Below are positions 4,386 to 7,540 of a DNA stretch of 64,000 nt, piece by piece. A model generated the notes under the pieces. That model saw only the letters and a list, made by a program, of their open reading frames with translations, made no database searches and was not told the DNA's origin. The stretch covers positions 1 to 64,000 of the forward strand of contig CABVRX010000019.1 in the NCBI GenBank assembly GCA_902500825.1. Direction: 5' to 3'. The translations under genes and the position numbers were made by a program. Numbering within the stretch: the stretch's first letter is position 1; each line of letters starts with the position of its first letter. This DNA comes from an uncultured Nitrospira sp. (GTDB lineage Bacteria > Nitrospirota > Nitrospiria > Nitrospirales > Nitrospiraceae).

Positions 4386-5150
4386 TTATCTAGTCGTTGA
4401 ACCGAGTTCTACTCCTAACAGGCGGACCATCTCGCAGTAGAAGGTATCGGCCAATCGTTCCAGATTCACGCAATCCGCTTCATTGTAGCCGAGCAGCCGT
4501 TCTCTGGCTTCCTTATCATGGCTGTGCTGCCATCGATTCCACAGGAGCACTGCATCATGACCATTGAAGCCATGTAGATCTGTCGTACGAGTAATGTCCA
4601 GCTGCGCTTCAATCGCCTTGAGTCCACCTCGATACCCGAGCTGTCGGCCAACGAAACACAGGTCGATGTGCGGTTGGTCTAATGGAAGGCTGGGAAACTG
4701 CGCGAGCAACTTCGGTACATCGAACGTCGCCCCGCAAAACGTCACCAGCAGATCGTACCGAGACAATTCATCCGCAAGGTGCCGGGCATTCAACGACTCA
4801 CCCCGAACGAATGAGGTGAACCGGCTATGACCATAGAGTCCTACGACGGTGATCTGTCCGAAGGAATCGGTTTCGATGTCCAGATACACCGCACGTTCAC
4901 GAAGCCATTCATAAAGCCGCCACTGCTCCCGCTGAGGCAGGACCAGGCCGAAGTAACGCGCATCGTCTTGCGCGTGATGTGCTTGAGCTTCAGAAATAGC
5001 CTCGTCATACAACGCTTTCCGACCTGCGCTGATACCTCGGATGGAGGAAGCCGCGAGGAAATCTGTCCAGGAACTGATTCCTTCGCGCCACAGACGCCGT
5101 TCAGTAGTGCGCCCTATCCCTGTAAGCAAGCAGAAGGTGGATGTAATCAT
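4386..5150 (-). CDS. RNase H-fold 3'-5' exonuclease-like protein (YprB type)
   Basis: The 254-residue protein starts with a helix-hairpin-like N-terminus (LLTGIGRTTERRLWREG) that resembles helical DNA-binding modules. It continues with a DEDD-type exonuclease domain: YLDIETD near residue 90, FCGATFDVPKL near 138, HIDLCFVGRQLGYRGGLKAIE, and YNEADCVNLERL near 225. These supply the four acidic residues expected for two-metal nuclease chemistry. YprB-like proteins are predicted nucleases whose substrate is not settled. It is transcribed alone. Confidence 0.8.
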   Translation of the reverse strand: MITSTFCLLTGIGRTTERRLWREGISSWTDFLAASSIRGISAGRKALYDEAISEAQAHHAQDDARYFGLVLPQREQWRLYEWLRERAVYLDIETDSFGQITVVGLYGHSRFTSFVRGESLNARHLADELSRYDLLVTFCGATFDVPKLLAQFPSLPLDQPHIDLCFVGRQLGYRGGLKAIEAQLDITRTTDLHGFNGHDAVLLWNRWQHSHDKEARERLLGYNEADCVNLERLADTFYCEMVRLLGVELGSTTR

Positions 5151-5312: not shown

Positions 5313-5320
5313 CCCTGGGA
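5313..5320. repeat. Target-site duplication, left copy
   Basis: CCCTGGGA directly precedes the left inverted repeat and recurs exactly at 7533-7540 immediately after the right inverted repeat. Eight bases is the usual duplication length of IS1595-type elements. Confidence 0.88.
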
Positions 5321-5339
5321 GGTACTGGTAAAGTTTGAA
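5321..5339 (+). repeat. Left terminal inverted repeat
   Basis: GGTACTGGTAAAGTTTGAA. It pairs with 7514-7532 with two mismatches and is the outer boundary of the transposon. The lysine-rich peptide gene begins 48 bases inside it. Confidence 0.88.
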
Positions 5340-5386
5340 TCTCCGAGGGACTAGCGAAAGGCGTAAGGCTCTGGCATGATGGTGCC

Positions 5387-5536
5387 ATGCCAAAGCCAAA
5401 AGCCAAGAAGAAGAAAGCGCCTGCCAGAAATCCATCTGACCCCATGAAACTTGCCCGTTCAGTGGTCGAAGCGGCCATTGGTGAGCCGCTTAGCTCGAAA
5501 TCAAGAAAGAAGAGAGCCCGTAAGTCAAAAGGGTAA
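5387..5536 (+). CDS. Transposon cargo: 49-residue lysine-rich protein
   Basis: Starts MPKPKAKKKKAPARNPSD and ends in a second basic patch (SKSRKKRARKSKG). The middle MKLARSVVEAAIGEPL resembles the N-terminal half of a common small-protein family in which a similar helix is followed by a Gly-Gly-Leu-Lys-Gly-Gly and Ala-Arg-Trp motif; that second half is absent here. The charge suggests nucleic-acid binding, an inference only. It runs tail to tail with the P63C gene, whose stop lies four bases away. The start has no strong ribosome-binding site. Confidence 0.55.
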   Translation: MPKPKAKKKKAPARNPSDPMKLARSVVEAAIGEPLSSKSRKKRARKSKG

Positions 5537-5539
5537 TCT

Positions 5540-6574
5540 TCAGCTCACTTCGCCTTCATCCTTCCCATACTCTAAATCCATTGGAATCGTTTGCCCGAAT
5601 TTGGGATGTATTGTTTCCAGCTTATCCATGAAATCCTCCCATTTATCACTGAGTTTCATAAGAGTAACCACAGACCCTAGATGTTCCCTTAATTTGGGAT
5701 AGCCTGTGTTTTGGGTTAATTTTTGAAAATATTTTGCTGTTGGCCTTCCAGCTTCATTGCGCGGGACTTCGCGTTGTAATTCCTCGCGCACTCCAGGGGC
5801 TAAACGGTCATATATAATATTATTTGTTAAAACGCCAAAGTACTGCGGTCTCTTCACTGTAGTTACAGGGTATGGTAGGCCCCGCAATCTGAACATATGT
5901 TCATAAAAATCTGATGGGAAAGTTTTGATCCACGGTTGCAATTCTTTAGCGATAAATGCCTCAAGAATCTTCGCAAGAGCATCTTTTGCTCTGTCCTTTT
6001 GATAACCTGTTGCCTCATCAACAAGAGCAATAATCCCAACTGTTGCGAATCCATGTTGAAGAATGGCTGCCCGTTCCGCTAGCGGTTCTAAGCGTTTACC
6101 AAGCATCCCCTTCTGATGCGCTTCGATAATCACAGCGCATATGTCCGGTAACATCGTCGCGTCATACCCGTCAGCAAACGGCCCTCCATTCGGTAAAATG
6201 AAACGAATAGGAGAATTGGCGCGCACAACTAACCCTCTGACATCAAGGCCTTTTTCCGCAAGATTAGCCATGATCTGGACGATTTTGCGCTCACCACGCT
6301 TCCCGCCACCTTCCGATAATCCAATGCCACTTTGAAGGCCTCTCATTGAAAGTACTCGCGTCCCATCCGACAGAACATAGCACGGTATTTCGACTGTCCC
6401 GATTTTGAGGGGGCGGTCAGGGCCACCATATGAAGCTTGAATTGGTTGCTTTCCCTCTCCAGCCCATCTGGCAATAGCTGCATTCCTTGCGATCAAAGAC
6501 CGCTTTTGACGGGTTAGCTTCTTGAACCGCTCCTGTCCACCTTTTGACGCCATCTCAGAATGTTTATTGGTCAT
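5540..6574 (-). CDS. Transposon cargo: P63C-domain protein
   Basis: Start ATG at 6574 has AAGGAGGG six bases upstream, giving 344 residues. Residues 5-38 carry a basic motif (MASKGGQERFKKL ... ARNAAIARW) like the second half of the small Ala-Arg-Trp family. The middle has ATVGIIALVDEATGYQ, a pattern shared with phage-type antirepressor proteins. Residues about 200-300 match the P63C domain: IAKELQPWIKTFPSDFYEH, KRPQYFGVLTNNIIYDRLAPG and LREHLGSVVTLMKLS. P63C proteins are found in phages and mobile elements and have no established biochemical role. It is divergent from the transposase and may regulate it. Confidence 0.83.
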   Translation of the reverse strand: MTNKHSEMASKGGQERFKKLTRQKRSLIARNAAIARWAGEGKQPIQASYGGPDRPLKIGTVEIPCYVLSDGTRVLSMRGLQSGIGLSEGGGKRGERKIVQIMANLAEKGLDVRGLVVRANSPIRFILPNGGPFADGYDATMLPDICAVIIEAHQKGMLGKRLEPLAERAAILQHGFATVGIIALVDEATGYQKDRAKDALAKILEAFIAKELQPWIKTFPSDFYEHMFRLRGLPYPVTTVKRPQYFGVLTNNIIYDRLAPGVREELQREVPRNEAGRPTAKYFQKLTQNTGYPKLREHLGSVVTLMKLSDKWEDFMDKLETIHPKFGQTIPMDLEYGKDEGEVS

Positions 6575-6610
6575 GGTTATCCCTCCTTGCATCGCAATGT
6601 AGCATACTTA

Positions 6611-6659
6611 ATGCTTGCTAGCAAGCATATTGACATCGGATTAGGTGTTATCGGATAAT
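6611..6659 (+). promoter_or_regulatory. Perfect 18-bp palindrome and transposase promoter
   Basis: ATGCTTGCTAGCAAGCAT at 6611-6628 is a perfect palindrome in the gap between the divergent P63C and transposase genes. Immediately after it is TTGACA (6630-6635), then an 18-base spacer and GATAAT (6654-6659), a near-consensus sigma-70 promoter reading toward the transposase. A protein bound at the palindrome would occlude the -35 region. Operator function is inferred. Confidence 0.6.
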
Positions 6660-6686
6660 GCATCCATTGCAATGGAGGTCGCTTTC

Positions 6687-7517
6687 ATGAACAAGCTGGA
6701 CAAAAAACGAAGAGCGCAAGTCGTAGCGGCACTGGTCGAAGGCGCAAGTGTCAACAGTGTGGTTCGTATGACTGGCGTCTCAAAGCCAACGATTCTCAAG
6801 TTGCTCGCCGATTTAGGTACAGCCTGCGCGAAGTATCAGGATGAAAAGCTGCATAGCCTCCCTTGTAAGCGTGTTCAGGCGGATGAAATTTGGTCGTTTT
6901 GCTTCGCAAAGGACAAGAATTTATCTGAAGAAATGAAAGGCAAGTTCGGCTTTGGGTCGGTCTGGACATGGACAGCCATTTGCGCCGATTCCAAGCTCAT
7001 GATTTCGTGGCTTGTCGGGGAACGTAGCGTGCCTTATGCCGTCAAATTCATTGATGATCTAGCTTCACGTCTAGCCCATCGAGTGCAACTCACCACCGAT
7101 GGACATAAAGCCTATTTGCGAGCCGTTGAAGGAGCTTTTGGCGCTGATGTGGACTACGCCATACTAGAAAAGATTTATGCGGCGCCACCACAAGAAGGCG
7201 TGACGACTCGGTATAGCCCGGCTCAGTGCTGCGGGACCAAGACCCATCGGATTACAGGCAATCCCGATTCAGGGCATATCTCTACCAGCTATGCAGAGAG
7301 GATGAACCTACAAATACGAATGGGGATGAGACGGTTTACGAGACTGACGAATGCACATAGCAAGAAGGTTGAGAATCACCGGCATGCATTGGCGCTTTAC
7401 TTCATGTATTACAACTTTGCTCGCATTCATTCGACACTGAGAGTGACCCCGGCCATGCAGGCAGGAGTTTCTAACCATGTCTGGTCGTTAGAAGAAATCG
7501 TTGGGTTACTCGGTTGA
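6687..7517 (+). CDS. DDE transposase (IS1/IS1595-like)
   Basis: Start ATG at 6687 has GGAGGT seven bases upstream and lies after the predicted transcription start; upstream in-frame starts would precede it. The 276-residue protein has an N-terminal helix-turn-helix (residues 5-45, VNSVVRMTGVSKPTILKLL) and a DDE core: Asp66 (QADEIWSF), Asp138 (TTDGHKAY) and Glu204 (SYAERMNLQIRM). The end MYYNFARIHSTLRVTPAMQAG is typical of the family. All catalytic residues are present and the frame is intact. It ends at the right terminal repeat. Confidence 0.92.
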   Translation: MNKLDKKRRAQVVAALVEGASVNSVVRMTGVSKPTILKLLADLGTACAKYQDEKLHSLPCKRVQADEIWSFCFAKDKNLSEEMKGKFGFGSVWTWTAICADSKLMISWLVGERSVPYAVKFIDDLASRLAHRVQLTTDGHKAYLRAVEGAFGADVDYAILEKIYAAPPQEGVTTRYSPAQCCGTKTHRITGNPDSGHISTSYAERMNLQIRMGMRRFTRLTNAHSKKVENHRHALALYFMYYNFARIHSTLRVTPAMQAGVSNHVWSLEEIVGLLG

Positions 7518-7532
7518 AACTTTACCAGTGCC
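7514..7532 (-). repeat. Right terminal inverted repeat
   Basis: Reverse complement GGCACTGGTAAAGTTTCAA, overlapping the last codons of the transposase. It forms the outer boundary with the left repeat at 5321-5339. Confidence 0.88.
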
Positions 7533-7540
7533 CCCTGGGA
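7533..7540. repeat. Target-site duplication, right copy
   Basis: CCCTGGGA, identical to 5313-5320, abutting the right inverted repeat. Removing one copy plus the element restores a continuous intergenic sequence. Confidence 0.88.

Follow-up and report, generated by a model that had tools for sequence, protein, structure and literature searches.

A P63C cargo gene that may have taken over transposase control in an IS1-like element of Nitrospira

Introduction

A stretch of 64,000 nucleotides from an uncultured Nitrospira sp. (contig CABVRX010000019.1), called the window here, contains a gene for a 49-residue protein that stands tail to tail with a gene for a P63C protein. A sequence-only reading of this DNA had described the two products as separate halves of one small-protein family, a helix half and a GG..ARW half, and had suggested that they share an origin or work as a pair. 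We asked how two such halves came to lie side by side and what they might do there. The answer that we favor, and consider reasonably probable, is that both genes belong to an IS1-like element with an exchangeable slot, that GG..ARW is a DNA reader, and that the cargo P63C took over control of the transposase. The evidence, all drawn from sequence, consists of the ends of the element with their target-site duplication, exchange of genes in the slot, homology of the two halves, motif enrichment, and co-occurrence.

Results

An IS1-like element encloses both genes

The 49-aa gene and the P63C gene were enclosed, together with a transposase gene, in one IS1-like transposable element of 2,212 bp at 5321-7532, which had the following features.

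5313..5320, no strand: 8-bp target-site duplication, left copy (CCCTGGGA), from the sequence, matched with the right copy
5321..5340, + strand: left inverted repeat GGTACTGGTAAAGTTTGAAT, 17/20 matches to the right repeat
5387..5536, + strand: small basic core protein, 49 aa, helix half present and GG..ARW half absent by profile comparison
5540..6574, − strand: P63C cargo gene, ORF reaching 6592 (PF10546, E 7.6e-31; PHROG 2384, E 9e-102)
5690..5968, − strand: P63C domain within the cargo protein (residues 209-301, counted from the ORF start at 6592)
6464..6550, − strand: N-terminal GG..ARW module of the P63C protein, a putative DNA-reading domain (residues 9-37, start at 6574)
6611..6628, no strand: ATGCTTGCTAGCAAGCAT, a perfect palindrome of 18 bp in the gap that separates the divergent genes for P63C and the transposase; candidate operator of the P63C type
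6630..6659, + strand: transposase promoter-like site TTGACA-18-GATAAT, directly 3' of the palindrome
6687..7517, + strand: IS1-like DDE transposase, ORF opening at 6645 (NF033558, E 2.8e-13, below cut-off)
7513..7532, − strand: right inverted repeat GGCACTGGTAAAGTTTCAAC (as read on the − strand), pairing with the left repeat
7533..7540, no strand: 8-bp target-site duplication, right copy (CCCTGGGA), from the sequence

The transposase gene was divergent from the P63C gene, and the 49-aa gene lay on the strand opposite P63C. The last two genes did stand tail to tail, as described earlier, but the gap between the ends of their ORFs was 3 bases rather than the four originally given. A single open frame of 290 aa encoded the transposase, and one open frame was found in many relatives too. 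The protein scored 50.3 bits with NF033558 against a cut-off of 100, so that the IS1 threshold was not reached, and 18.5 bits with PF03400 against a cut-off of 24.1 (E 0.0027); its relatives are annotated 'IS1 family transposase'. It also contained a predicted HTH (HTH_23 and HTH_7 at E 0.0018 and 0.015, both below cut-offs). The source genome carried one full copy of the window element and a second, diverged element (C11, L090), whose transposase was 58% identical, whose small gene was full, and whose cargo was an HTH-M78 pair. A gene for an RNase_H_2 domain protein (PF13482, E 2e-31; 4386-5150, − strand) adjoined the left side of the window element.

The two halves of the small-protein family

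Both proteins were compared with a profile of full-length small proteins from related elements, from which those of the window, L102, and L108 and aberrant ones had been excluded. The 49-aa protein, in which the helix half was present, scored 20.6 bits (11.4 at most in 1000 shuffles); for the P63C N-terminus, the score was 35.3 bits (12.4 at most in 1000 shuffles). What the window small protein lacked was exactly the module that its P63C neighbor carries, the GG..ARW half (0.7 bits with the module profile). The assignment of the 49-aa protein and the P63C N-terminus to the helix and GG..ARW halves of one small basic family was therefore borne out, since each was significantly similar to the family and outscored all 1000 shuffles. 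PHROG 2384, whose match spanned almost all of the P63C protein (E 9e-102), aligned through positions 8-38 (E 1.3e-5) and 8-37 (E 8.5e-4) with the C-terminal half of the small proteins of two relatives, providing an independent link between the small-protein module and the P63C family. With PF10546, the cargo protein scored 107 bits against a gathering score of 26.1 over positions 1-93 of the 93-position profile, making it a full P63C member; no model in Pfam, NCBIfam, or PHROGs matched the 49-aa protein.

When the full small protein of L187 was modeled with AlphaFold, a short helix (15-26) was followed by a two-helix hairpin (41-61 and 64-81), and this hairpin was the GG..ARW half (pLDDT about 90). 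The model (mean pLDDT 80.9) matched no PDB structure, so the DNA-binding nature of GG..ARW rests on its association with the motifs described below, which suggests that it is probably a compact helical-hairpin DNA-reading module. For P63C, a model made with 15 sequences (mean pLDDT 76.9) matched nothing in the PDB at E below 0.1; in BFVD, it had three matches under 1e-3, with Mx8 p63 second in the list, and Bro-N/antirepressor proteins matched only at E 0.04 and above. Sequence searches of the PDB returned nothing for P63C or the transposase; for the small family, they gave two matches at chance level.

A conserved small gene and an exchangeable cargo slot

The element family was surveyed in 88 elements, taken from the best 80 of at least 568 transposase-similar loci on genome contigs and from 148 sampled genomes of the phylum, with genes called as the longest nonoverlapping ORFs. 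L109 was removed as a copy of L079, and no further copies were present among the 88 elements. The record titles of the best 80 of at least 568 relatives named Nitrospirota, Acidobacteria, Planctomycetes, Verrucomicrobia, Chloroflexi, several proteobacterial classes, Omnitrophota, and Patescibacteria, among others. Among these 80 loci, the small gene lay upstream of the transposase gene and on the same strand in 68; of the 12 loci without it, 10 extended less than 2 kb upstream, and among the 67 loci with 2 kb or more on that side, 65 had it. Matches in the 148 phylum genomes were found for the transposase in 23, for the small-protein profile in 25, and for P63C in 12. The small gene was present in 20 of the 26 oriented phylum loci, and the six without it were five short transposase pieces and L092, whose transposase was 47% identical.

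The ends of 37 elements, 2.0-4.1 kb long, were identified, and 28 of these elements had a target duplication of at least 8 bp; in elements with called ends the small ORF began 14-195 bp from the left end. The space between the small gene and the transposase gene measured 0.4-3.2 kb (median 1.26 kb). Across the 88 elements, 138 cargo ORFs of at least 80 aa fell into 72 clusters; as 54 of these were singletons, a large part of the cargo is unclassified. P63C formed the largest cluster (15/88 elements); next came HTH-protease ORFs, in 11 and 9 elements, and then SDH-type proteases, in 6. Pfam searches with 130 cargo ORFs identified HTH_3 (28), Peptidase_M78 (17), P63C (15), HigB-like (5), and Fic (2) domains, and the PADLOC families RmrA, PD-Lambda-2_B, capP, and RmrT matched up to 17, 13, 12, and 4 ORFs, some ORFs being shared and some matches being due to generic HTH or protease similarity. 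The window P63C protein itself matched none of the PADLOC families, including the BstA model. Between the window element and L102, the transposases were 90% identical, the small proteins 74%, and the P63C proteins about 40%. Judged from these sequences, the core consists of the small gene and the transposase gene, which flank an exchangeable slot that often holds toxin-antitoxin- or defense-like cargo.

The cargo of L122 (304-1452) was a BstA-type abortive-infection protein with the GG..ARW module fused in front (PADLOC, E 2.8e-118); a scan of viral contigs gave no match to this fusion. In L179 (3454-5843), the small gene encoded the helix half only, and a separate GG..ARW ORF (~55 aa) lay on the opposite strand just before the transposase, so that the two halves are truly on two genes there; the promoter region of this element contained TACGTGAGCGCTCACGTA, and a related palindrome was present despite the GG..ARW-less small gene.

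That many slot-mates of P63C are toxin-antitoxin-like could suggest that the small protein and P63C are themselves such a pair. We consider this extremely improbable and rejected it: most P63C loci on viral contigs (77 of the best 80) had no small gene in the fetched flanks, and the small gene accompanies the transposase and every kind of cargo.

P63C and the small gene occur apart

Viral contigs yielded 571 P63C loci, the best 80 of which were analyzed. GG..ARW was present in 68 of these 80 proteins, no relative of the window transposase was found at the 80 loci, and the small gene was absent from the fetched flanks (up to 4 kb) of 77. In the other 3 of the best 80 (L234, L246, and L247), P63C stood tail to tail with a small GG..ARW gene without a window-type transposase, and L234 contained a pair that by eye was SocA-like, similar to the cargo of L180.

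These loci bear on the proposal that an ancestral small gene was split and that its two products form a physical pair. The complementary halves in the window and their tail-to-tail order invite this idea, and both the separate ORFs of L179 and the three viral loci (of the best 80 of 571) with P63C and a small gene agree with it. However, a full small protein and a GG..ARW-P63C coexisted in 10 elements, and most viral P63C proteins had GG..ARW with no small gene nearby. The 10 elements and the 68 of 80 viral proteins indicate that the P63C module did not come from this small gene. In L077, L083, and L093, it was a full-length, two-half small protein that was encoded tail to tail with the P63C gene.

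The closest relatives of the window element point the same way. Transposases were found in 41 of 175 genomes of the family, and the closest group comprised eight elements with 86-96% identical transposases (the window element, L102, L108, L411, L412, L413, L414, and L416). All eight small proteins (45-55 aa) lacked GG..ARW. Five of the elements (window, L102, L411, L412, and L416) carried GG..ARW-P63C as cargo; in the others, the helix-only small gene lay beside a P63C with a YdaS-like HTH and no GG..ARW (HTH-P63C; L108) or Fic-type cargo (Fic in L413, Fic-like by eye in L414), and a six-frame search of these three elements revealed no GG..ARW. The absence of GG..ARW from all eight small proteins, and of any GG..ARW from three elements, makes gene fission unlikely. 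Fission followed by physical pairing was thus rejected as the general case, given the coexistence in 10 elements and the helix-only elements without GG..ARW, and we regard it as highly unlikely. The window element, L108, L411, L412, and L413 had 8-bp duplications at five different sites, so that the clade is mobile even though its small protein has no GG..ARW. The right end of L108 lay some 0.7 kb past its transposase, and the transposase of L416 was broken. Outside this clade, three small proteins lacked GG..ARW (L178, L179, and L181).

Of the two relations suggested by the sequence-only reading, a shared origin by splitting of one gene is thus not supported, given the coexistence in 10 elements. 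The genes often occurred one without the other, with P63C in only 15 of the 88 small-gene elements and no small gene in the flanks of 77/80 viral P63C loci, so that a conserved, obligate pair is not supported either. Working as a pair survives in a regulatory sense, in that five of the eight helix-only clade elements carry GG..ARW-P63C and 3 of the best 80 viral loci have both genes tail to tail in the absence of this transposase.

TGCTTG sites near the transposase and P63C genes

Palindromes with arms of at least 7 were present upstream of the transposase in 36/88 elements (8.6% in shuffles). The word TCAAGCA/TGCTTGA occurred upstream of the transposase in 52 of the 73 non-P63C elements, whatever their cargo (0.8 expected by shuffling). 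Within 130 bp of the transposase, it was present in 59 of the 82 elements with a full small protein, the exact word being absent in 23, and in none of the six with a GG..ARW-less small protein (Fisher 8.8e-4 versus 59/82) or of 11 when five more clade members were added; the eight GG..ARW-less clade elements represent one shared loss, so Fisher values overstate the independence of these cases. A weaker signal of this type preceded the small gene (17/88 in the last 62 bp, with 0.8 expected and start codons approximate).

The sister word TGCTTGC/GCAAGCA was found upstream of GG..ARW-P63C in 44 of 70 nonredundant regions (IS elements, 12/13; viral, 32/57), with at least two copies in 37, versus 1 of 13 regions upstream of P63C without GG..ARW (IS, 0/2; viral, 1/11). 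Its background was 1.8% in shuffles and 2.8% of 2831 windows from the same loci. In a second viral set, which overlaps the first in contigs and is more distant from IS-type P63C, TGCTTGC preceded only 16/54 GG..ARW-P63C genes and only 1/26 genes for short GG..ARW proteins. The GG..ARW profile that detected modules in cargo was derived from the small proteins themselves. A search for the module in 49 genomes yielded mostly short proteins and P63C and was excluded from the site counts. Seven of the 73 non-P63C elements had TGCTTGC/GCAAGCA near the transposase, one of them the BstA fusion of L122, which had four half-sites upstream. The occurrence of the two words within 130 bp of the transposase start, sorted by small protein and cargo, was as follows.

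Full small protein, other cargo: TGCTTGA 52/71, TGCTTGC 7/71
Full small protein, GG..ARW-P63C: TGCTTGA 6/10, TGCTTGC 8/10
Full small protein, HTH-P63C (L082): TGCTTGA yes, TGCTTGC no
GG..ARW-less small protein, GG..ARW-P63C: TGCTTGA 0/6, TGCTTGC 6/6
GG..ARW-less small protein, HTH-P63C (L108): TGCTTGA no, TGCTTGC no
GG..ARW-less small protein, other cargo: TGCTTGA 0/4, TGCTTGC 0/4

The transposase start of L093 was misplaced in these counts, and this element was counted against our reading although its true intergenic region, with both TGCTTGC and TGCTTGA sites, agrees with it. Within the one clade of 86-96% identical transposases, the type of site followed the cargo and not the transposase. 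In L411, L412, and L416, a TGCTTGC-type site stood between TTGAC(A/T) and TAAAAT, 35-46 bp upstream of the ATG of the transposase gene, and L419 and L424 had the TGCTTGA type at this position. In the window, the palindrome at 6611-6628 was the only match (0.01 expected) and lay just before the TTGACA at 6630, upstream of the −35 element and not in the −35/−10 spacer; the 8-mer TGCAAGCA does not occur in the window. TTGACA-18-GATAAT was found once in the region against a shuffle mean of 2.9 and is not significant by itself.

GG..ARW and related sites were also seen elsewhere. An HMGL-like and Cache-domain protein with an N-terminal GG..ARW was encoded in L106 (2223-4208), with relatives in L065, L066, L067, L074, and L107; these genes, apparently unrelated to the transposon, had two or three TGCAAGCA-type sites upstream in five related genomes, mostly with one over the start codon. 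L097 and L098 encoded free-standing GG..ARW-only proteins of 58-59 aa with GTGAGCG- or CTTGAGCG-type palindromes upstream, which would fit a varied specificity.

The sites could be read in other ways. The transposase might repress itself by reading TGCTTGA with its N-terminal HTH, the small protein being a histone-like architectural helper of transposition. The HTH predicted in the transposase (below cut-offs), the location of the TGCTTGA sites at the transposase promoter, and the annotation of a relative's small protein as 'histone H1' are compatible with this view. Yet the 86-96% identical transposases of the clade had either no sites (L108, L413, and L414) or TGCTTGC (the other five), depending on cargo, and sister half-sites occurred at phage P63C loci where no relative of the transposase was found. 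As for the helper, the perfect 8-bp duplications of five GG..ARW-less clade elements, at five different sites, show that movement does not require the small protein's GG..ARW half, at least. We therefore consider this explanation unlikely.

The TGCTTG words might instead be promoter or RNA-leader features of a mobile 5' cassette that includes the GG..ARW coding start, with GG..ARW acting otherwise, for example as a tether to nucleic acid without sequence preference. In many P63C genes and in the HMGL-like genes, sites overlapped the start codon or the −10 element, the two copies in HMGL-like genes could form a hairpin before a T-run, and transfer by itself would couple module and motif. Conversely, the start-codon word occurred in either orientation (L167 and L161 versus L083 and L187), which suits DNA better than RNA, and TGCTTGA sites preceded the transposase gene, which does not itself encode GG..ARW; the distance from these sites to the gene that does so frequently exceeded 1 kb. 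A cassette of this kind seems to us quite improbable, less so than fission but more so than self-repression.

Proposed control of the transposase

In the reading that we prefer, the GG..ARW of the small protein would, in an ordinary member of the family, repress the transposase promoter via TGCTTGAnnnnTCAAGCA-like sites in or near its −35 and −10 elements, and P63C would use its own GG..ARW to read the sister half-site TGCTTGC and control the P63C promoter. The small protein of the window clade has lost GG..ARW and the TGCTTGA sites have disappeared, and in clade elements with GG..ARW-P63C, P63C-type sites lie in the P63C-transposase intergenic region, in three elements near the transposase −10 or −35 element. 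After this loss from the core, P63C would hold the transposase promoter besides its own. The combination of a GG..ARW-less small protein with only TGCTTGC sites suggests that the cargo P63C probably took over control of the transposase; binding of TGCTTG sites by GG..ARW, repression through this binding, and the takeover by P63C are all steps that we infer.

A broader and more tentative view, which we rate at somewhat under an even chance, is that GG..ARW is a widespread, hitherto undescribed, portable DNA reader, that TGCTTG(A/C) moves with it, and that in this IS1-like superfamily cargo repeatedly replaced the core repressor, which would let the passenger decide when the transposon jumps. 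As part of this view, the portable reader would span unrelated proteins, namely the IS small protein, P63C, BstA, and the HMGL-like proteins.

Discussion

The window element seems to present a case in which a passenger has captured the switch of its vehicle. This would also give a testable role to two families to which the searched libraries assign no function, the small protein ('histone H1' in one relative) and P63C. Compact IS1-like elements in records named for many phyla carry exchangeable toxin-antitoxin- or defense-like genes, and its place among such cargo makes P63C a candidate phage-defense or exclusion gene; that it serves host defense or the exclusion of other phages is a guess from its slot-mates. 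Passenger genes in small transposons are already known. In the open-license literature searched, we did not find the element family, GG..ARW, its sites, the constant small gene, the slot, or the takeover.

The element resembles the IS1 family (NF033558; PF03400) in its DDE transposase with weak IS1 matches, its 8-bp duplication, and its inverted ends of about 20 bp. Classical IS1 uses a frameshifted insA/insB transposase; the window transposase is one open frame, so the insA-insB' frameshift feature is absent. The element further differs from IS1 in scoring below both cut-offs and in two additions, a small gene that is conserved and a slot of 0.4-3.2 kb for cargo. Tn7-like transposons are far larger than the window element. 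They share with this family a diverse defense cargo (PMC8649781), whereas their transposition machinery is unrelated.

Tn3-family transposons carry toxin-antitoxin passengers beside their transposition genes, so that toxin-antitoxin genes in these elements are already known, and the authors of that account consider that promoters of the passengers might influence tnpA (PMC7157771). The elements described here are alike in that toxin-antitoxin-like passenger genes adjoin transposition genes, but they differ in transposase class and size, no resolvase was seen in them, and their cargo is exchanged while the core small gene stays constant.

BstA is described as a phage abortive-infection protein with a putative DNA-binding N-terminal region (PMC8585504). 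A GG..ARW-BstA fusion occupies the cargo slot of L122, and BstA and P63C are both phage proteins with a putative DNA-binding N-terminal region; unlike BstA, P63C has no PADLOC match. For the P63C domain, Pfam and PHROGs list no function, and the literature search found no named function. The window cargo protein is a full member of the P63C proteins (PF10546; PHROG 2384; phage Mx8 p63) and differs from them in being the cargo of a transposon.
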